Shown piece after piece: positions 1 to 50,334 of a stretch of DNA of 64,000 nt. How positions within the stretch are numbered: the first letter of the stretch is position 1; each line of letters opens with the position of its first letter. The position numbers and the translations under genes are program-made. This stretch comes from Sanghuangporus weigelae. Its lineage: Eukaryota > Basidiomycota > Agaricomycetes > Hymenochaetales > Hymenochaetaceae. The notes beneath the pieces are model-generated. The model had not been told where the DNA came from and made no database searches. It saw only the letters and a program-made list of their open reading frames with translations. The DNA lies in NCBI GenBank assembly GCA_033182465.1, contig CP137329.1, positions 1 to 64,000 on the forward strand. The letters run 5' to 3'.

Positions 1-234
1 ACCCTAAGCCTAACCCTAAGCCTAACCCTAAGCCTAACCCTAAGCCTAACCCTAAGCCTAACCCTAAGCCTAACCCTAAGCCTAACCCTAAGCCTAACCC
101 TAAGCCTAACCCTAAGCCTAACCCTAAGCCTAACCCTAAAGCCTAACCCTAAAGCCTAACCCTAAGCCTAACCCTAAGCCTAACCCAAAGCCTAACCCTA
201 AGCCTAACCCTAACCCTAAAGCCTAACCCCTAAC
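1..234. repeat. Terminal telomere array with alternating hexamers
   Basis: The first 234 bases are made of CCCTAA and GCCTAA units, mostly in strict alternation as a 12-bp unit (CCCTAAGCCTAA), with a few irregular units containing AAAGCC or CCCAAAG near the inner edge. On the G-rich strand this reads TTAGGG alternating with TTAGGC. The C-rich strand runs 5' to 3' from base 1, as expected for a left chromosome end. Most fungi carry plain TTAGGG, so the alternation is unusual. The array ends abruptly at the retroelement repeat that begins at 235. Confidence 0.93.
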
Positions 235-335
235 CCTTATAAAAAGGCGAAATTGGAGGTGTGTGTTCCCCCACTCACCAATAGCTGATTAGTCTTTTAG
301 CTCGCTTTTGGGATATTTGCTTCACCGCCTAACCC
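235..335 (+). repeat. 5' copy of the 101-bp element repeat (pLTR)
   Basis: Identical base for base to 4611-4711 on reading. It starts CCTTATAAAAAGG and ends CACCGCCTAACCC. The last eight bases (328-335, CCTAACCC) are telomeric in sequence. Penelope-like elements often carry such partial tandem repeats, called pLTRs. Confidence 0.9.
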
Positions 336-384
336 ACCATTACATCCCCTGTCGCCCTAGCATACTTGTATTTTCTTCCCCACC

Positions 385-3300
385 ATGAACTCTTTTACCT
401 CTACGCTTTTGCGGGCCATGTCCCCTTTGACGGATGCAGGCCCTTCGGATTTTCTCAGTAAATCTGCAGGAAATTCGCAAGCGCGCTATGGACGCATCCA
501 CCGGCTCCAGGCGGCCTCTAGCCTGGAGGAGTTAATTTCTCTAGTCCCTGCGGACTACCGGTCGCTTCTGCGGTCACCCCTTCTTTCCATCGCGTCTACG
601 GCTGAAAAGCTGCAGAAGGCGAAAGTCAGTCTGGAGAACTGGCGGAGCGCTCAAAGCGCCGGAAAGATCCCCGCCTTCATCCGTTCTCAAGCCCCCTCTG
701 TCCAAAAGACGAAGGAATACAAGGCTGAAACGGGGCGGGTCGTGGAATCTACGGTTGCGTCTATTCATGATGCTTATCTTAAGGACGTTCTCTCAGCGGC
801 AATCGCTGAAAAAGAGGATGAAGTTATTTTCCTAAAGGACCGTATGAACCATGAGCGCCTTTTCCGCGAGATCAGCGACTTAGTCAAAGCTCGCGGCGCA
901 GTGCTTACCACGTCTCAGTTGCTTCCCGAATTTGTCATGAAAATGAACGAACAGACAGGGCAACAGGAACAAGTACTCGAATGGCGTCCATCCCCCGTTG
1001 CTGCACGTATTGCCGAAGAACTCCTTTGTGATTGTATGGCTTACGTATACCGCGCTATCGATATCGTCAATGGCCGGCATCTCATTGCGGATCAAAAGAA
1101 AGATCGCAAAAGGCAGATAGCGAAGACAGCCGACATCGAAATGGCCGACGCAACTACAGCTTCAAGCTCGAAAGTCGCCCCATCGATTCAATCTGCGATT
1201 GATAAAGCAATATCGAGTCGGCTCAAAAAGGTTAATGCGCCTAAGAAAGGCAAAAAGGTCGGTAGTCCAGTAGATCATCTCACTAGTACACTCAGTGATA
1301 TGACATTCTGGAATACCACAGAACCCGAAAAAGAAGTCATCAACCTCCAAACCGGTAAACGCGCCGCGATACATCCCGCCTGCCCTCGGAAAAGGCAAAG
1401 GCAAGATCGGATCCGCACTTTCGCGCAAACCCGTACCGAAGTCCAAAACCTCGGTTTTAAAGAAGAAAGCTCCGAAAGGAAAGGGAAAGGGAAAGAGCAA
1501 GGCATGAAACGGTACGCAGACACATTCGTATATATGCCAGGAAAACCCCATCTCATTCCGGATTGGATTCTTGATATCCCCTTCATGGATGCAGTTAAAA
1601 TAGTAATCTTAAATACGCCTGTAGATATTATCAGTGCCGCCCAATTTAAGAATCTCGTTCATTGCAGCCCTGGTGTGAGCTTTCCAATTGAATTAAGTCA
1701 CCAACTGAGTGTAGGCATGAAATATATGTTCATGCGTCCGGGTAATGCTAAACTTATCACTAGCGCCTGGAATGATTTCAAACGTAGATTAAGATGGCGT
1801 CTTAAATTTGCATTTGACAAAGCATCGCCCTTTGGTGTAAGCGATGAATTCTATGACCCCGATTACGACGTGCGTAAAACTACTAAAAATAAACCGCCCG
1901 TGCTACCGCTATATCTTGAATGGGGCCTTAAGAAGGGTAATCATTTCGTATTTAAATCGATTGAAAAAATACCTCTTAAGGACGAACCGGATCAATTTAA
2001 ACCTCTCAATCCGGCCATCCATACCCTCGAGAAATTCTTAAGTGAACATAATTATGTTATCACACATACTGATAAGAACTTGGGCATTGCGGTGTCTGAG
2101 AGAACCTGGATCATAGACAAATGTCTCGACATTCTCAAGTCAGAAAAGGATTATCAACCCTTGACTCGTACACAAGCTTGGAAATATCTCGACATTAAAT
2201 ACAAACTTTGCTCAGAATTATCTGAAGACGCTGATGCATATGTCCCATATCAATATGGTTCGGTCGCTGACTTTTTGCGGTCTAAATTACCGGAAGACAA
2301 CGACTTTATTAATGCATTTCAACGTAACTATCATGTGCCTACCTTCTATGGTATTCCCAAAATCCATAAACAACCCGTCAAACTACGACCGATTGTTCCA
2401 TGTCATAGTGCCATGCAAAACCCTTATGCAAAGTTCTGTTCAAAAATGCTGAAACCGATTATCCAGTCGGCGCCTACCATTATACATGGTACAAAAGATC
2501 TGGCGCTAAAATTCAGCAAAATCAATATTAGCACACATCGCCGATGGTTTATAGTCACCGGTGACGTAGTCGCATTCTACCCAAACATTCCTCTAATACA
2601 ATGTCTTGACATAGTGTACGACATGTACATTAACCATTACTGGCAACAAATGTTAGACAATCGCGAACCTACGTTTTTCGTAAAAGAACAACAAGAGTTC
2701 TTTAAACACGCTCTTTATTGTGCTAATACCGATCTTGTATTGCAATTTCAAGAACAGTTTTACCTTCAAATTCGCGGCCTCGCAATGGGTGTCGCAGACT
2801 CACCGGATCTTGCTAATTTATTCGGTTGGTTCTTTGAAAGTAAAGCCAACATTCTTACCCATCCGTCAATCCCATTTTACGGAAGGTACATCGACGACTG
2901 TCTTGCACTAGTATATGCTGATAGCGAAACTGAAGCATGTAATCTCGTCAGCAGTCTTATAAAGTTCGATGGTTGCACTATTGAATGGTCCGCGTCTGCC
3001 TACGGGCAACCCTTCCTTGACATGTATATCTATAGAGACCATTATGGTCTTCTCCAACACATGCCATACCGCAAAGCACGGAACCATCAAGAAAGAATTC
3101 CATTCATATCACATCACCCAATGGATGTCAAAAGAGGTACCTTCATTGGCGAAATGTCGCGATTAGCCACACTCAGCAGTACATGGTCACATTACTCTGA
3201 TGCACTTCACGGATTAGTCTCCTTATATGTGCAACGTGGCTACCCGCGTGAACTTGTTATATCATGGCTTAAAAATAATATCCAAGAACGATGGCAAAAT

Positions 3301-3882
3301 CGGATCTCTTCCAATGGTCCTAAACGGGAGCCCGCAAACGTTCTTGTTCTTAAATCAGAATATAACATGGTCTGGAATTATTTTTCAGCTACAGAATTAT
3401 CAAAAACTATCTTCGGATACTGGGTCGAGTGGCTAGAAAGAGCCGAACGATGTGAACCTTATAACATAGAGTTCCCAGCACCGATGTCGTTGGTTGGTGA
3501 TGATATCTCAGGGTCTACGGCCGCCTCTACGGGGGTTCGCAATGCGACTGGGACGGAGCAAATCTTCGTACCTGACGTGCGCAAGCTAGATATCCTTAAC
3601 CGGAGAATCCTTGTTTCACGAAAACGAACAAGGAATCTATTTGATCTCGCATCATTATGGAAAAAGACAGTTTTTGAACACTTGGATGAGTTAGTAGCCA
3701 AGGACGAAGGAGGGATAATGGAAACAGACCCTCCTCCCGCTACTATCGCTAAACCCTCCAATACTAGTATACCTCCTGGCACGCCGCCCCGACGAAGGGC
3801 TGACGGTAAGCCGATCGAAGACGGAGACGAAATTATTATTGGACGGGCCTCACCCAAAGACAACTCTATAGCTTGGCGATGA
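385..3882 (+). CDS. Penelope-like reverse transcriptase, endonuclease-deficient
   Basis: Intron-free ORF of 1165 residues that copies the element RNA into DNA. Visible landmarks in order: a basic Lys/Arg-rich N-terminal third; a DKN variant of the Penelope DKG motif near residue 563; FYGIPKIHK and RPIV near 655-675; motif A, GDVVAFYPNIP, with Asp near 727; motif B, LAMGVADSPDLANLF; motif C, YIDD, at about 835-838; and the thumb motif region with HPMDVKRG and GEMSRLA. Both catalytic Asp positions are present. After the RT there are about 200 residues with no GIY-YIG endonuclease, which places it with the endonuclease-lacking, telomere-associated group. The ATG at 385 lies 50 bp inside the element and no other ORF is needed. 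There are no internal stops, so it could be active. The orientation towards an internal telomere stretch supports chromosome-end attachment rather than cut-target insertion. Confidence 0.93.
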   Translation: MNSFTSTLLRAMSPLTDAGPSDFLSKSAGNSQARYGRIHRLQAASSLEELISLVPADYRSLLRSPLLSIASTAEKLQKAKVSLENWRSAQSAGKIPAFIRSQAPSVQKTKEYKAETGRVVESTVASIHDAYLKDVLSAAIAEKEDEVIFLKDRMNHERLFREISDLVKARGAVLTTSQLLPEFVMKMNEQTGQQEQVLEWRPSPVAARIAEELLCDCMAYVYRAIDIVNGRHLIADQKKDRKRQIAKTADIEMADATTASSSKVAPSIQSAIDKAISSRLKKVNAPKKGKKVGSPVDHLTSTLSDMTFWNTTEPEKEVINLQTGKRAAIHPACPRKRQRQDRIRTFAQTRTEVQNLGFKEESSERKGKGKEQGMKRYADTFVYMPGKPHLIPDWILDIPFMDAVKIVILNTPVDIISAAQFKNLVHCSPGVSFPIELSHQLSVGMKYMFMRPGNAKLITSAWNDFKRRLRWRLKFAFDKASPFGVSDEFYDPDYDVRKTTKNKPPVLPLYLEWGLKKGNHFVFKSIEKIPLKDEPDQFKPLNPAIHTLEKFLSEHNYVITHTDKNLGIAVSERTWIIDKCLDILKSEKDYQPLTRTQAWKYLDIKYKLCSELSEDADAYVPYQYGSVADFLRSKLPEDNDFINAFQRNYHVPTFYGIPKIHKQPVKLRPIVPCHSAMQNPYAKFCSKMLKPIIQSAPTIIHGTKDLALKFSKINISTHRRWFIVTGDVVAFYPNIPLIQCLDIVYDMYINHYWQQMLDNREPTFFVKEQQEFFKHALYCANTDLVLQFQEQFYLQIRGLAMGVADSPDLANLFGWFFESKANILTHPSIPFYGRYIDDCLALVYADSETEACNLVSSLIKFDGCTIEWSASAYGQPFLDMYIYRDHYGLLQHMPYRKARNHQERIPFISHHPMDVKRGTFIGEMSRLATLSSTWSHYSDALHGLVSLYVQRGYPRELVISWLKNNIQERWQNRISSNGPKREPANVLVLKSEYNMVWNYFSATELSKTIFGYWVEWLERAERCEPYNIEFPAPMSLVGDDISGSTAASTGVRNATGTEQIFVPDVRKLDILNRRILVSRKRTRNLFDLASLWKKTVFEHLDELVAKDEGGIMETDPPPATIAKPSNTSIPPGTPPRRRADGKPIEDGDEIIIGRASPKDNSIAWR

Positions 3883-4589
3883 AAAACAGGTGTGTAGGTG
3901 AACTACAGACTCCTCATAGTAAGGGCATGGGTCACCCGAAACGTGTGAGCGACGAGGTGAGCCGTATTTATGCATTTGTCAATTGTTGTCGAGTTACCGG
4001 ATCTAGCCGTCAGTAGGTAAAAATACCCTCCGAGCGCCGTTAGAGAAGGAAGAGTAAATCTCTGTGTATTCTGTAGGACAGTCACATTCAATCGGTAGGT
4101 ACTACGGTACTATTTCGTTACGGTATTATTAATCGTGGTCTTTTAGAGCCCCCAAGCCTAACCTGAACCTAAACCTAACCGTATGTACTATACTTAATCG
4201 TATATAAGTCAATTATTCTGACATGCTCTTGATATCCTTAGCTAATCCTAACGCTAAGCCTAACACCTAACTCCTAGAGGTGCTAACCCATGTTTTGATA
4301 GTGCGTGACATACACTGTCAGGTGATTCCATTAGATTACGTAACTCGGATCAAATCGGACATCACTCGGATCTGCACCGGCATGATAGGATCAAGATCCG
4401 ATCACAAACCCGTGATCGGAAAAAGGTACGCGGCCTTACTAAGTGTTTACACTGACGATATTACGTTCCGGCCCGTTCACATGACAGCACGTGATACTCC
4501 AACCAATCGGAAAGATCGGTGAGTAATAATTTTTGACAACTGACTGACTAACCCCGACTCCGACACGGAGCGGACTGACTAACATGACT
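3883..4589 (+). other. 3' untranslated region of the retroelement
   Basis: About 700 bp without a convincing gene. It holds two telomere-like islands (about 4150-4182 and 4239-4275, irregular CCTAA-type units). Its last 50 bp carry three GACTGACTAA-like repeats and a hairpin CTCCG-ACA-CGGAG just before the hammerhead ribozyme. A short ORF at 4280-4522 has no recognisable features and is not called. Confidence 0.6.
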
Positions 4590-4670
4590 GACTAAGTACA
4601 GCCTGACGAGCCTTATAAAAAGGCGAAATTGGAGGTGTGTGTTCCCCCACTCACCAATAGCTGATTAGTC
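4590..4670 (+). ncRNA. Hammerhead ribozyme, type I
   Basis: All conserved parts of a self-cleaving hammerhead are present in order. The stem I 5' side is GACTAA-GTA-CAGC (4590-4602). The core CTGACGA is at 4603-4609. Stem II is GCCTT-ATAAA-AAGGC (4610-4624) and the core GAAA is at 4625-4628. Stem III is TTGG (4629-4632) with CCAA (4654-4657), followed by TA. The stem I 3' side is GCTG-A-TTAGTC (4660-4670). The stem I sides pair as CAGC/GCTG and GACTAA/TTAGTC around a small internal loop. The cleavage triplet is AUA and cleavage is predicted between 4659 and 4660. Hammerheads are known in the repeats of Penelope-like elements. Only the 3' repeat copy has the full motif; the 5' copy begins inside stem II. 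Confidence 0.88.
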
Positions 4671-4711
4671 TTTTAGCTCGCTTTTGGGATATTTGCTTCA
4701 CCGCCTAACCC
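4611..4711 (+). repeat. 3' copy of the 101-bp element repeat (pLTR)
   Basis: Exact direct repeat of 235-335. It carries stem II onward of the hammerhead and runs without a gap into telomeric repeats. Its terminal CCTAACCC (4704-4711) is shared between element and telomere, so the exact junction is ambiguous by eight bases. Confidence 0.92.
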
Positions 4712-4737
4712 TAAGCCTAACCCTAAGCCTAAAGCCT
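4704..4737. repeat. Interstitial telomere stretch, former chromosome end
   Basis: Three CCTAA-type units in the same alternating style and orientation as the terminal array (CCTAACCC, TAAGCCTAACCC, TAAGCCTAAAGCC). They sit between the retroelement 3' end and unique subtelomeric DNA. The simplest reading is that the chromosome once ended here and the retroelement was added to it. Confidence 0.85.
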
Positions 4738-5493
4738 TTAACAGCGGACGTCTGAAAATGCGGCTCCAGATGGTACTGGAAACAGAGTCATCGCATTTAT
4801 TGAAATGCGCATAGCTGAACATGTTGGTTCCCCGGTGGATGCAGAGAGACCCCGGCTGACCTGGTGGGATGCAGTGGTGACCTCGAGAGTCGCGCATACA
4901 TGCCGCACGAGTTCTTGGTAGTGTGCCAGAGTACCGAAAAGCTTTGTAATTGTATTCTTGTCTGGGTAGATGTAGGCTGAAAAAATGGAGATCCTCTTCG
5001 CGTTGTGGCTACTTGTCCCTTCTGTACAAACAATCAGGAGACATCGACTCTAGTTTACATGTACTTGTATGAATTCAGTGGGCTCTGGTGCATTATCCAC
5101 AGCTTTGTGAACTTTGTTTTATTGCAGGTATTATATACTCCGTAATCAATGTCTGGATCCTTTGGACATGAGTGAGTATCACGATCAAATACGTTGTCTG
5201 GAAGATCTGGACATTGAGTCTGTGTGTATGACTGACCGGATGCGCGAATGCACGATAAATTAAAGGGTGACTGACAAGGCTTGAAAACAGTACAGTACTA
5301 GTAAGATCTTATTTCTTCGATGAAGCACTCCCTCACAGGATTGTAGTATACAGGAGCCCCAAGAGCCCCAACGAAGAATAATGAGCTCATAGTGGCGGAA
5401 AGAGCGTCAATCAGTCTACGTACCAACAGTCAGTCGTTTTGATATCCGACGTACTATTGAGTCTGAATCCCATTGCGTATACGAACAATAAAT
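4738..5493. other. Subtelomeric intergenic stretch
   Basis: No ORF with family resemblance or plausible splicing on either strand. The short ORFs here are chance frames. Confidence 0.5.
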
Positions 5494-6885: not shown

Positions 6886-9089
6886 CTAAACATGAGAGAA
6901 GATCCCCGCTTCCTTGCGCGCCTTCGTCATTGCTGAAGAAGGTTAAGTGAGGCAAAATCAGCAACAGCAGACAACATCGGAGAAAAGTACGTGAATGGCA
7001 ACGTACCAGCAATGATCGCACTCCCAACTCCACTGCCATCTTCGGCGTGATGCGTTACTATATTGCTAAAAATGTACGTTAGCCCAGAGTTCCGTGACTC
7101 GAACGAGGCGGCAAGGCACATACCGGCCCTTGTCACCGAAAATGTCGACTAAACCCTCGTGTACACGATCTGCAAAGCCGGGGTATTTCTATTGATGATG
7201 AGACAACGCATCAAATTCAGTATGTCGCCAATACTGTGAATCGAACGCACGTTATATAGTGATCCGTCTGCACCAACACTGCATCCTTCATCTAAATAGC
7301 CCATTTTGGTCACAATAGCCGCGATACCGCAGGCACTCAAACGCGCAGCTCGACGCCCTACCAGACGTGCAAGGGCTCGGAAGAATTGCCGTTCGGCAAG
7401 CGTTGTCTCAAGAGCAAAGAAATGCGTGAAGATACCGATGATCATGAGAAGCTCGTCTGTCGGATCACTGGCGACGGAATATATCATTAGTAGCGGACAA
7501 AGCTGCGCCAATAAGAGCCGCACCTTTCCATCAGTGATAGGAAAGCGGTATCAAAGCAGTATGGTTTCTCGAGCTTGTACGTATTTTGACCGAGGAAAAG
7601 TACACCCTCGTCGATAAGTTCGCAGATGACCAGCCGTAAGATTTCACCCAGGTATCGACCAGAGATGAGTTTCTAAACGTGTGCGTCAAAGAAAGGATAT
7701 AAGAGAGCAGAAATGAACCCTACGCACTTCAAATGCTTGTTCCCCGGGCTTGTTTGATGTTTCGTCAACAATCTGATCGTATTTTGTCCTGGGAAGATGT
7801 TCATGAAGATGCGAATCGAATGCGCCCTGATGTAAAGTTCATCTCAAGGTGCCTCTTCCCGAAAATAAAGGCTACACGCACCCACTCGCAGTTGATTGCC
7901 ATCTCAGAGTAAGGACCTGTTTCGGACTTGTTCAGGCCGATTTCGTGGATCTTTGTGATTTCGCTGACTTTCTCCATGTAGGCAGCATTGCATCCTGTAC
8001 CAAAGATGACGGCAATCTTGGTACGTGGGTTGACATAATGGGAGGCAATGAGTGTTCCGGTGGTATCATTGATGAGCGCAGTCATCTTTATTGGAAGAAC
8101 CTGACGACAGGCCGATGAGAGTTTATGCAGGATAGGATAGGCAAAGATACGCACTAGTTTCTCGATGGACTTTCGGAACATCTCTGCGACATCTCGGCCT
8201 TCAGTATTAGGCGCGCCAAAGCCCTTTGTCCAACGAATGAGCACTCCGTGATCAATGCGTTCTTGGCTACAGAAGAATGTCGTATGCGAGGTCACAGCAG
8301 AGAGAAACGCGAGTGACTCACTCGCATGGATAAGAGAACTACGAAAAGTTTTGAGCTCGATCAATGGCCAAGGATAATAAGAAGTCGAACTCACCGTAAA
8401 GCCGAGGGGCAGCTGTTGCCCAGGCTGTAACAAGGTTTCCGTGTGCCCAGATGATCCTGTCTGCTCTACTCGGATCGACTTCTTATCCTTCTCTTCAGTG
8501 TCAAGAGAGACGTTGGCACCCGGTTCAGAAACGGTAGACAGATTTGTTTCGATGAACGTCTTGAGGCACTCTGCGCAGAAATCGAATAGTTTTTCTCCGT
8601 CGTCATGTTTTTGTTCTTCTGTAAGGCGATATTTTGTTTGGGTGATTTCGAACTTGCCCTCGCCTTGGAGAGAAACGAGACAGACGCGCAGGTTTGTGCC
8701 ACCTGGAGGTCAAGATATATGCATTATTGATAGACACGGCGATCGGCATGTGACGCTATGACGCACCTAAATCGAGCGCCAGATAATCACCGACTTCGTT
8801 ACCTGTTGGCCAACCAAAGACGAAAGTTGGAATCATCGGCTAGACAGTACCAACGAGAGTGGTGGGTATATGCGTGTCGACAGCTAAGTAATGGAACTTA
8901 CGACTACTTGATTATGCTTTTTGAGACCGTTGTCAAGAACTTCACTGAACGCCTGCGTGATCATGCGCATGCGTTGAGGAGTGAGCGTGAACCTGTCTCG
9001 ATACGCGACACAACACTTGAGCAAGGTCGAAATGATCTGGAAACGAATGGGACGTACAGTTGCTCATACTTGCGGAGATGATCCGCCAT
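6886..9089 (-). CDS. Hexokinase
   Basis: ATP-dependent phosphorylation of glucose and other hexoses, the first step of glycolysis in the cytosol. Many short exons on the minus strand splice into one uninterrupted frame. Exon 1 gives MADHLRKYEQL (9058-9089). It is followed by FTLTPQRMRMITQAF, IPTFVFGWPTGNE, the phosphate-binding region LALDLGGTNLRVCLV, the substrate-site region VLIRWTKGFGAPNTEGRDV, the catalytic Asp in ALINDTTGTLIA, FGTGCNAAYMEKV, SGRYLGEILRLV, SVGADGSLYN and HAEDGSGVGSAIIAA. It ends MTKARKEAGIFSHV. All key motifs are present and no frame break is seen. A further 5' exon cannot be excluded, because the called first exon encodes only 11 residues. It is divergent from the carboxypeptidase at 9637. 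Fungal hexokinases may also act in glucose repression, which cannot be judged here. Confidence 0.93.
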
Positions 9090-29391: not shown

Positions 29392-31347
29392 TTAGAAGCC
29401 TCCCATGCCTCCCATGCCTCCCATTCCGCCCATTCCGCCCATTCCTCCCATAGCAGGCTTTTCCTTCTCTTCGGCCTCGACAACACACGCTTCGCTTGTG
29501 GTGAGCAAGCTGGCAACACCAGCAGCATCAACCAGTGCCGTACGTACGACCTTGAGTGGGTCGACGATACCAGTCTTGATCATGTCAACAAACTGCCCTT
29601 TGCTCGCGTCGTAGCCCTGTGCAAATTGCTCTGGCGCTCCGTGTTGCGACACGAGCGTGCCGACGATCACAGAAGCCTCCTCGCCCGCGTTCGTCAAAAT
29701 GGTGCGAGCAGGCTGGCTCAAAGCACGACGGATAATCGATACACCAAGTTCCTGGTCGAAGTTTGCAGTGTGAATGGGTTCTGGACTGCTACTTCCATTG
29801 CTCGACGTCGGAAGCGCGAGCGAGGCCTTGAGAAGAGCGACACCGCCACCAGGAAGAATACCCTCCTCAACAGCCGCACGAGTAGCATTAAGCGCATCAT
29901 CATAGCGGTCCTTCTTCTCCCCAACCTCGACTTCACTGGAACCACCAACCTTGATGACAGCAACACCCCCGGAAAGCTTGGCGAGACGCTCCTGGAGTTT
30001 CGTCTTGTCGTATTCACTTGTCGTCGGGTCATTCAGGGCAGAACGAATCTGTTCGCAGCGTGCTTGGATAGCATCCTTCGATCCCTCGCCATTAAGGAAG
30101 ATCGTGTCCTCCTTAGTGACTGTCACAGAGCCGGTTGAACCAAGCATGTCAGGTGTTGCTCGTTCAAGCTTGATGTCAAGTTCATCCGTGAAGACAGTGC
30201 CGCCAGTCAAGATTGCAAGGTCACCGAGGATGCTCTTGCGGTTGTCACCAAACCCAGGCGCTTTAACTGCGCACACCTGAAGTTGACCGCGGAGTTTGTT
30301 GAGGATACACGCCGCGAGCGCTTCACCGTCCACGTCCTCCGCAATAATTAGTAACGGGCGTCGGGCCTGCGCTGCGGTCTCGAGCGACGGAAGGATATCC
30401 TGAAGAAGTGAAATTTTCTTCTCAGATAAGAGGACAAACGGCTTCTCGAGTTCAGCCTTTTGCGTTTTGACGTCGGTGATAAAGTACGGTGAAATGTACC
30501 CGCGATCGAAGCGCATGCCTTCGGTGATCTCAATCTCATCCTCGATTGTTCGTCCCTCCTTTACGGTGATGACACCCTCCTTGCCGACCTTTTCCATTGC
30601 TGTTGCGATGAGGTTTCCAACATGCGTGTCTCCATTCGCCGAAATGGTTGCCACCTGTGCGATTTCCTCAGTCGTCGTTACGGCCTTTGCATGTTTTGAC
30701 AGATAATCGACAACACGATCTACTGCAGCTTGAGCGCCACGGCGGAGATCCATCGGATTGCAGCCTGCAGCAACGTTCTTGACACCCTCCGCGTAGATTG
30801 CGCGTGCGAGAACCGTCGCAGTTGTTGTACCATCACCTGCGACCTCATTCGTCTTCTGAGCGACATCTTGCACCAGTCTACATTGCCCGCGAAAGTGATT
30901 AGTAATGTAATTTCCAGGATAACATGACAAAAAAAAAAACTAACCGTGCACCAAGATTCTCAAACTTGTCTTTGAGAGTAATAGCCTTGGCAACAGTTAC
31001 ACCATCTAAATATCAATGAGATCAGGAAAGCAGATCAGCTAGTTAATGAAAGAAAAAACTTTTACCCTTGGTGATTTTGGGTCCACCGAACGACTGCTCG
31101 ATGATGACGTTACGACCTAGAAAAGCAAATCGGTAAGATAACAGCCATCAGCTCTCTAACGACCATGGTTACCCTTGGGACCGAGCGTAACGCTGACTGC
31201 CTTAGCGAGAACATCAACACCAGCCAGGATTGCAGCTCTGCCGTCGTTGGAGAACTTGATCTCTTTGTGAGCACCGCGAGCTAACACGGGTTTCGCAGCC
31301 TTAGCTGCACGACGGGCAACAGAAGAGCTTTGACCTAGACGATGCAT
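29392..31347 (-). CDS. HSP60: Mitochondrial chaperonin HSP60 (group I)
   Basis: Folds imported proteins in the mitochondrial matrix. It starts [20 protein letters not shown], an Arg-rich, acid-free leader suited to mitochondrial import. The mature part follows: [49 protein letters not shown], the ATPase motif [49 protein letters not shown] and the C-terminal GGM repeats ending GGMGGF. The first three introns lie near the 5' end and most of the protein is one long exon. The gene looks intact. A heat-shock element lies upstream (31499-31511). A GGC/GAC triplet run (31376-31406) lies in the presumed 5' UTR. Confidence 0.96.
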
Positions 31348-48463: not shown

Positions 48464-50334
48464 TTCTGGAGGCTTCTGAGCTTTTGTAGCTAAGTAAAGC
48501 TCCGGGCGTTGTAGCGCACTGGCTCCTCCTGTGCCAGTACACTCATACTATGGCTCCCTCTTACTGCAGATACCATATCCCAGCACTGCCGACACCTGAG
48601 AGTGTGAGGGCACACTCCTATTGCACTCGGGACATCATTTGAGCACGTATCCATTGATTCCAGCACACGTACTGTACTGCGGCGCCCTCCTATGACCCAA
48701 ATCGATCCGCCGATGGCTCCCCGACACTCAGACAGGTCCGCCGACAGCTCCTACCCAGCACCAGGCACTATAGGACACATCCCTCAGTGACTACGTGCCG
48801 CCGATCTTATGATTTACCATACGTACAGCCGTGCGGCGACTCTGGATGCCTCCGAGTCGGCCCCCCTTGGCGCCGATCAATGCGGCGGACACTCAGACAT
48901 CCTCAGGTACCCTCGCCGACGCCTCCTACAGCTTACCAAGCAGTCCCCCATTGTCTAGGGAGCTATATATTGTCATATGTGCTTACATGCCTCATTACGA
49001 TGTATCTGCCACCAGTCCGGCAGTCCCCCACAGCACTGCCGCTCCGGCCACTCATATTAGTCACTAGGGATTGCCCACACTCTGTATTGAGTGCCGCCGA
49101 TGCATCGGACACCTCAGGGACATCGGCTGATGCGCCCTTTGTCTCATATACGCGATATCAGCCTCCAATCATCAGTTCCGATGTTTCCCGACTTCCCCCC
49201 GACGCGGCGGCCCCCATTAGACCATGTATGGAAGGTAGGCATGTGGTACATCGGCGTGCCAAGCCACCGACTCGCGCCGCCAAGCCCAACTCCACCGGCG
49301 CCCGTGTTATTACAGATACTCAATATTTCATGTGATTGGATGCCCCCCTCACGTTGCCGCTCTCAGATTTCACCTGGGCGCTCCGGCAGCGGCCCTTGGT
49401 GACCCAGATGACTCAGGAGATGTTGTCAGACAGTAGGATGTGTCGGCGACAGCAGTAGAGTATATATAGAGCTTATACTAGCTTGTAGACGACAAGGATT
49501 CCAAGCCTAGCAAGGATTCCAAGAGCATGTACCAGACCGAGCGCCAGAGTTTGAGATATCCCTCACTCTGAGTCTCCCCTCATGTACTGAGCCTCCCCCT
49601 TGACTATATACTATCCTTGACATCTCCTCTTGTTTGACTCCACATTCTACTTGCCTTCGCCGCCTCCGGTACGCCTCTGCCGCTCTGACGTTCAGTGAGT
49701 GAGTAGGGCTTGGGATTTAACCCTGAGCCTCCTCCCCACACTTTATACCTGTCCGGCGCCCCTCTATTTGACATCGGCGACCCTTTGGCGACCCAGGCTT
49801 CTTATCAGACTCCCCTTCGGCGTCCTTTCCAGCCTTTCACTCCAGTTTATCCCATCTATTGATCTTATACGGTCTTTTCCTTTCATCTATCGCGTTTACG
49901 CTACTTCGGCAGATTTGTGCAGCCTCCCCCTCAATCCGGCACCCCTCTATTCGACATCGGCGGCCACCTGGCGACCCAGCCTTCCTATCATGCACCCCTG
50001 CAGCGCCCTTTCCAGCCTTTCACTCCAGCTTAGTCCATATATTCATCTTATACGGTCCTTTCTCTCCATCTATTGTGTTTACGCTACGTCGGCAGCCCCC
50101 TGTGATCCCCCCTCTCAAGCGGCGGTCCTGTTATCCTATTCCCTTTATCCAGCGGCATCCCTAGACCCATCCATTACATCTCCGACGGTTCCTGGCACCT
50201 GCCGGGTAGTAGGTCTTTGAGAGTCTGATAGCGTCGGCATCCCATTTTTGGAGGTCCCTTCATACATTCAGCACCCTTAGTAGGACGGACATCTGTAGCA
50301 CCTTCAGATACGACACCGCCGACCGACAGCGCAT
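48464..50334. repeat. Non-coding C-rich inner part of the left arm with minisatellites
   Basis: About 1.9 kb with several overlapping open frames but no credible gene. It contains an 18-bp minisatellite (CCTAGCAAGGATTCCAAG, about 49489-49533) and an approximately 190-bp tandem repeat (about 49750-50110) with units running from CCCCTCTATT to GTTTACGCTAC. The right arm has one more copy of the 18-bp unit and diverged long units. Confidence 0.7.

Follow-up and report, generated by a model that had tools for sequence, protein, structure and literature searches.

The window, which is the whole 64-kb stretch of DNA that was analyzed, begins at a chromosome end with a telomere array (1..237) built of the unit CCCTAAGCCTAA (TTAGGCTTAGGG on the other strand), and directly under this telomere lies a 4.4-kb retroelement with a single open frame, which the array caps. 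Tandem Repeats Finder describes the array as having a period of 12, 19.4 copies, and 95% matches. The 12-base unit CCCTAAGCCTAA can be read as TTAGGC and TTAGGG in alternation. No title among the matches listed reported CCCTAAGCCTAA as a fungal telomere, and one paper on fungal chromosome ends was a match for CCTAACCCTAAG only (PMC4978913).

The element is bounded by two plus-strand copies of a 101-bp direct repeat, one at its 5′ end (235..335) and one at its 3′ end (4611..4711), which are 100% identical, are separated by a unit spacing of 4376, and show no leftward extension. The 5′ copy begins within the last bases of the telomere array, which overlap it from 235 onward, and the cap joins the element at 235-238. 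Each copy ends in GCCTAACCC, nine element bases complementary to the G-rich strand of the telomere. In the 5′ copy, GCCTAACCC lies 49 nt before the ATG and is followed by ACCATTACATCC, the leader, and the open reading frame (ORF). In the 3′ copy, it occupies 4703-4711 and passes into telomere repeats, forming with them a telomere-complementary tail (4703..4737, plus strand) that matches the telomere stretch 190-224 at 97% over 35 nt. The telomere repeats after 4711 probably belong to the older chromosome end, and the 3′ untranslated part holds two degenerate tracts resembling telomere sequence (4155-4189 and 4234-4280, plus strand; 63-66% matches to the telomere stretch), perhaps left by earlier joins. 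The element therefore carries a telomere-complementary 3′ tail, which lies beside the hammerhead ribozyme (HHR) described below, and a telomere-capped 5′ end that faces the chromosome end. A retroviral-type LTR was ruled out as an identity for the repeat, which ends in the telomere complement.

There are three TATAAA sequences in 1-5200 (at 238, 2958, and 4614), two of them at the very start of the repeat copies. The TATA-like stretch TATAAAAAG opens the 5′ repeat at 238-246 and recurs at 4614-4622, where it spans the loop of stem II of the HHR and reaches into both strands of that stem. The analysis covers one copy of the element: tblastn found no second copy elsewhere in the 64-kb window, and blastn gave only four matches of 15-30 nt there, three of them inside tandem repeats near 52.2-52.5 kb. 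A 183-base tandem repeat is also present at 49752-50095, with 1.9 copies and 83% matches.

The single ORF (385..3882, plus strand) encodes 1165 amino acids from the first ATG at 385, in a frame that is open from stop to stop at 361-3882. It contains the reverse transcriptase (RT) motifs FYGIPKIHK (2344-2370), IVTGDVVAFYPNI (2551-2589), QIRGLAMGVADSPDLANLF (2767-2823), and YGRYIDDCL (2878-2904), and a Penelope-like thumb stretch at 3061-3180. We take the RT motifs, together with a TDKNLG stretch and the thumb stretch YRK..SHHP..RG..GE..RL, to be typical of Penelope-like elements (PLEs). Profile searches returned weak RT matches, with six RT models in PADLOC (best E 2.8e-4, covering residues 332-476 of a 792-aa part; weakest E 0.02) and, in NCBIfam, Drt3a (E 0.0076) and a retron RT (E 0.1). 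Pfam gave nothing at E 0.001 and, up to E 10, only unrelated names at E 0.08-0.25; sequence searches of the PDB with the RT gave no match; and PHROGs gave three matches to the element protein, all of unassigned function (E 0.1-0.32). A structure predicted for the RT region from its sequence alone had a mean pLDDT of 38.9 and was unusable. A pattern search of the three forward frames of 241-4710 gave no GIY-YIG motif, and Pfam gave none either, which is weak evidence because Pfam missed the RT too. Searches for relatives of the ORF found none in viral contigs, where a pattern search gave 2 stretches with 0 confirmed, and none of 18 stretches was confirmed in genome contigs; the exact 23-base stretch around the predicted ribozyme cut was likewise absent from the viral and genome contig collections. 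An absence of relatives is expected here, since the element is that of a eukaryote and the collections are of viruses and prokaryotes.

The RT motifs and the weak RT profiles point to an RT, and its probable membership of the PLEs draws partly on motifs taken as PLE signatures. The first-pass annotation had called the locus a telomeric Penelope-like element, and the analysis agrees to the extent of a telomere-linked retroelement with PLE-like features, namely the RT motifs, a perfect repeat, no endonuclease motif found, and a telomere-complementary tail. Inside the ORF, a second frame at 1304-1507 has a Lys/Gly-rich end (..KGKGKGKSKA), and the stop codon that closes it shares bases with an in-frame ATG of the RT at 1504. 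Codon statistics favor the long frame, narrowly at 1345-1464 (3.4 vs 2.1), and the stretch may be either a single fused ORF or a pair of overlapping ones.

Part of a hexokinase gene lies on the minus strand about 3 kb beyond the inner end of the element (7804-8709; Pfam Hexokinase_1, E 1.7e-38), and genes therefore begin very near the telomere. A Cpn60/HSP60 gene occupies 29392-30939, also on the minus strand, and the best 2 of the 60 PDB chains listed for it are glomalin (9k47) and a mitochondrial Hsp60-like protein (8pe8), both of which we take to be fungal, pointing to a fungus as the probable host.

A type I hammerhead motif across the repeat border

The plus-strand sequence at 4590..4670 is a type I HHR motif in which 20 of the 20 named pairs can form. 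Outer stem I joins GACTAA (4590-4595) to TTAGTC (4665-4670) with 6/6 pairs, and inner stem I joins CAGC (4599-4602) to GCTG (4660-4663) with 4/4 pairs. The core strand CTGACGA (4603..4609, plus strand) leads into stem-loop II (4610..4624, plus strand), where GCCTT (4610-4614) faces AAGGC (4620-4624) with 5/5 pairs around the loop ATAAA. GAAA follows at 4625-4628 and, together with stem III, takes up 4625..4658 on the plus strand. In stem III, ATTGG (4628-4632) and CCAAT (4654-4658) form 5/5 pairs, A15.1-U16.1 included, and the stem can be extended by 5 further inner pairs within 4636-4641/4648-4653, with one mismatch. Because H17 is A4659, in an AUA triplet, the cut is expected at 4659/4660, and GCCTAACCC of the 3′ copy lies 43 nt downstream of it.

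This arrangement corresponds to the definition of a type I HHR, with CUGANGA, GAAA, and UH in order and three ordered helices open at stem I, and the conserved positions at 4590-4670 are intact when compared with the general HHR consensus, which also served for the descriptor used below. An internal loop in stem I (GTA/A) and loop II (ATAAA) are both present, and a contact between them is a candidate only. Three copies of GACTGACTAA (4542, 4573, and 4586) stand at or upstream of the HHR, and TTAGTC of outer stem I could pair with any one of them. The first-pass annotation had placed all of the parts of a type I HHR here, in order and at these positions; the motif is real and complete, and was correctly recognized.

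The HHR had also been said to straddle the border of the 101-bp repeat, and the repeat does begin at 4611, inside stem II. Consequently, the 5′ copy (235-335) has neither CTGACGA nor the 5′ strand of stem I, and it is not a ribozyme on its own because telomere repeats cap it at 235-238, inside the would-be stem II. The element thus has the pseudo-LTR repeat with an HHR that is a trait of PLEs, with the HHR complete only in the 3′ copy. Two other arrangements were ruled out: a ribozyme in both terminal repeats, because the 5′ copy starts inside stem II, and a 5′ end of the element made by the ribozyme cut, because the equivalent cut, at 283/284, would fall 49 nt farther downstream. Judged by its position, the predicted cut in the 3′ copy would set RNA ends inside the repeat. 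As TATAAAAAG overlaps stem-loop II, the bases of the ribozyme there may also serve as a promoter.

Chance expectation, covariance scores, and competing folds

A strict HHR descriptor, written after the find had been seen, required stems of at least 4 pairs, a loop II of 3-10, and a loop III of 3-50. On both strands of the 64-kb window it matched 1 place, which is 4590-4670. It matched nowhere in 204.8 Mb of order-1 Markov sequence (0 of 1600 window equivalents, with 71630 core heptamers tested), a control that preserves neighbor-base content and not the higher-order features of real DNA. With the descriptor relaxed to stems of 3 and loops up to 20 and 80, there was again 1 place in the window, compared with 48 in the 204.8 Mb of simulated sequence, or ~0.03 per window. 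A pairing-free pattern, CTGANGA..GAAA..CCAATA, in which CCAATA and the spacings were derived from the find itself, occurred once in the window vs 0.02 expected, and found a match in 2 of 100 shuffles. Chance assembly of the parts had been described as very unlikely, and the lack of any strict match in the simulated sequence upholds that description.

The significance of an Rfam hammerhead covariance match had been set beforehand as a test able to refute the ribozyme, and by this test the result counts against it. Rfam 15 gave no match at the gathering score in the whole window. At permissive thresholds, the best match was Hammerhead_3 at 4588-4634 (12.6 bits, E 5.7), and when 69 bases were searched, Hammerhead_3 matched over 4597-4634 with 18.8 bits (E 0.038), vs a gathering score of 48.5. 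The Rfam output gives only the best model of a clan, so these scores are those of Hammerhead_3 and not of the type I model, and the gathering score is a threshold of the library rather than a defining trait of type I HHRs. We suspect that the long stem III and the seed sequences of the library account for the failure.

In energy calculations, the minimum-energy fold reached -24.9 kcal/mol, vs -21.7 kcal/mol with the HHR pairs enforced. A competing fold is therefore better by 3.2 kcal/mol at 37 °C, and the gap in its favor rises to 4.65 kcal/mol at 20 °C. The competing fold retains stems I and II, while the core CTGA pairs with TTGG and stem III is broken or shifted; the pairs of HHR stem III have a model probability of only 0.02-0.03. 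Because the energy model omits the non-standard pairs of the HHR core, this result is not decisive, and the predicted competing fold leaves room for an inactive form of the HHR. The region folds better than its shuffles (z -3.03), with 2 of 200 shuffles equally good.

Relation to known Penelope-like elements and retrozymes

Hammerheads had been described in the earlier annotation as established in PLEs, in agreement with the available portion of a review that gives HHR motifs in all available PLE sequences, usually minimal and without helix III (PMC6155905). The element resembles the Terminons and Athena of bdelloid rotifers, which excerpts of two papers present as endonuclease-lacking PLEs at chromosome ends, with a 3′ HHR directly before a telomere-complementary stretch and a 5′ end cut by telomere repeats (PMC6431247, PMC12477314). 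In Terminons, according to the excerpt, the HHR is followed at once by the telomere-complementary stretch, which is short, and telomere repeats truncate the majority of copies at the 5′ end (PMC6431247). In contrast to the Terminons, the element described here is a compact 4.4-kb unit with one ORF, in a probably fungal host, and has a tail that matches a 12-base telomere unit. Its HHR also has a full stem III, whereas the HHRs of Terminons and PLEs are called minimal, without helix III or loop-loop contacts, in the excerpted text of a 2020 review, which further calls the role of the HHR in PLEs and Terminons and its in vivo activity a mystery (PMC7761336).

Among fungi, telomere-linked PLEs are described in Agaricus bisporus in the excerpt of a paper from whose available text the word hammerhead is absent (PMC7473861). 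Coprina is named, in excerpted text, among the PLE superfamilies, and the element is like Coprina and other fungal telomeric PLEs in its probable host group and its telomere position. Five Hammerhead_3 matches are given for Pleurotus ostreatus, with no link to PLEs in the excerpt concerned. An HHR in a fungal telomeric PLE was named by no title among the matches listed, the papers likeliest to report one lying outside that scope. Fungal and protist PLEs reportedly encode HHRs that are stable as monomers, a result attributed to Cervera and De la Pena in 2014; if this is so, a full stem III would be expected here.

A further comparison is with PAc, a Penelope/Poseidon element of the green anole, in which, according to excerpts of its description, reverse transcription has an internal start 111-118 bp into the ORF, the HHR cuts 26 bp into the ORF, upstream of that start, and no RNA-seq ends fall at the HHR cut (PMC11167929). 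The element would share with PAc an HHR upstream of an internal reverse transcription start, more ORF downstream, and pseudo-LTRs from tandem units, but PAc, as excerpted, has a GIY-YIG endonuclease and cuts AT-rich DNA (PMC11167929). With retrozymes that carry a type I HHR, the element has in common a canonical type I HHR in a retroelement-borne repeat; retrozymes, in contrast, are described in the available text as short (about 170-400 nt in animals) and non-autonomous (PMC7229834).

Proposed working of the element and alternatives

Taking together the observed anatomy, repeat, tail match, and telomere position, we consider it probable that the element is an endonuclease-lacking PLE that adds itself to chromosome ends, and that 4590-4670 is its type I HHR. 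The exposed G-rich overhang of a short telomere (..GGGTTAGGC-3′) would pair with the GCCUAACCC that the element RNA carries 43 nt past the cut. From this primer the RT would copy first the ribozyme, then the 3′ untranslated part, and then the ORF, after which telomerase would cap the new end. Because GCCTAACCC in the 5′ copy is followed by the leader and the ORF, priming is probably internal, on a multi-unit template that could be head-to-tail or circular, and the terminal repeat would result from copying 101 nt beyond one full 4376-nt unit. In multi-unit or read-through RNA, the HHR would make a single cut in each unit, at 4659/4660. We infer priming, the multi-unit template, cleavage, and the use made of cleavage from this arrangement. 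Several points count against the explanation. Early cutting would destroy a linear template, since the priming tail is parted from the body by a cut at 4659/4660; there is no Rfam match at threshold, and the competing fold is favored; Pfam, the PDB, and the contig collections gave no relative; and in the anole PLE, HHR mutants inserted normally in vitro, cutting needed the protein, and RNA-seq ends at the cut were absent (PMC11167929).

Since the cut would part body from tail, and given the results with the anole HHR, a serious rival is that the HHR acts as a fold and not as a cutter, a role to which we lend tentative credence. The RT would recognize the HHR-shaped 3′ end, with the tail held free, and cleavage would be rare or suppressed by the competing fold. 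The advantage of that fold (3.2 kcal/mol at 37 °C), which has stems I and II in common with the HHR, is consistent with such a role, as is the waste of a linear template that would follow from cutting between body and tail. For the anole PLE, the excerpts call unprocessed RNA the dominant substrate, and report that cutting needed protein and that HHR mutants inserted normally in vitro (PMC11167929); for Terminons, exposure of the telomeric stretch by the HHR fold is put forward in the available text of a review (PMC6431247). However, the catalytic core of the HHR at 4590-4670 is intact, including the UH step, and a purely structural role would not need it.

The remaining explanations carry less weight. 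It is unlikely that double cutting and ligation produce a 4376-nt RNA circle on which the overhang primes at GCCUAACCC and the RT travels once round plus 101 nt. The unit spacing of 4376, the exact identity of the repeat, and a priming site internal to the unit would suit a circle, and retrozyme RNAs with HHRs are circles according to excerpts of two papers (PMC7761336, PMC7229834). Yet a head-to-tail transcript explains the same repeat, and the 5′ end of the element is found 49 nt upstream of the cut, not at the cut. Similarly doubtful is the view, modeled on Drosophila HeT-A, that an upstream neighbor supplied the 5′ repeat as a promoter, copied from its own 3′ end, with selection on the TATA-like stretch and the HHR secondary. 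The presence of two of the three TATAAA in 1-5200 at the very start of both repeat copies argues for such a promoter, but an RNA starting downstream of the TATA would yield cDNA without the TATA, and the complete HHR would be left unexplained. That an ordinary repeat merely resembles an HHR by chance, or contains a ribozyme that has decayed, seems very improbable. It would be in keeping with the absence of an Rfam match at threshold and with the better competing fold, but not with the 0 strict matches in 204.8 Mb or with conserved HHR positions that are intact by the general consensus. The motif also sits where PLEs are said, in the excerpts available, to carry HHRs (PMC6431247, PMC6155905).

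A more speculative possibility, and something of a long shot, is that the ribozyme makes a 4.4-kb circular RNA on whose internal GCCUAACCC the G-overhang primes, as on a built-in telomerase template. Reverse transcription by a rolling-circle mode would then lengthen the chromosome end, with the 101-bp repeat as its trace. If this were true, a ribozyme-made circle would be a telomere-extending template.

Read as an endonuclease-lacking PLE with its own HHR, the element is within the known Terminon/PLE scheme and adds one clean example to it. Its anatomy is unusually readable: the frame is open, stem III is full, the terminal repeat is exact, and each base of the tail can be compared with a telomere whose 12-base unit is itself unusual. 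As a single 4.4-kb unit, it offers a convenient test case for the RNA cut site, the telomere priming site, and the need for cutting.
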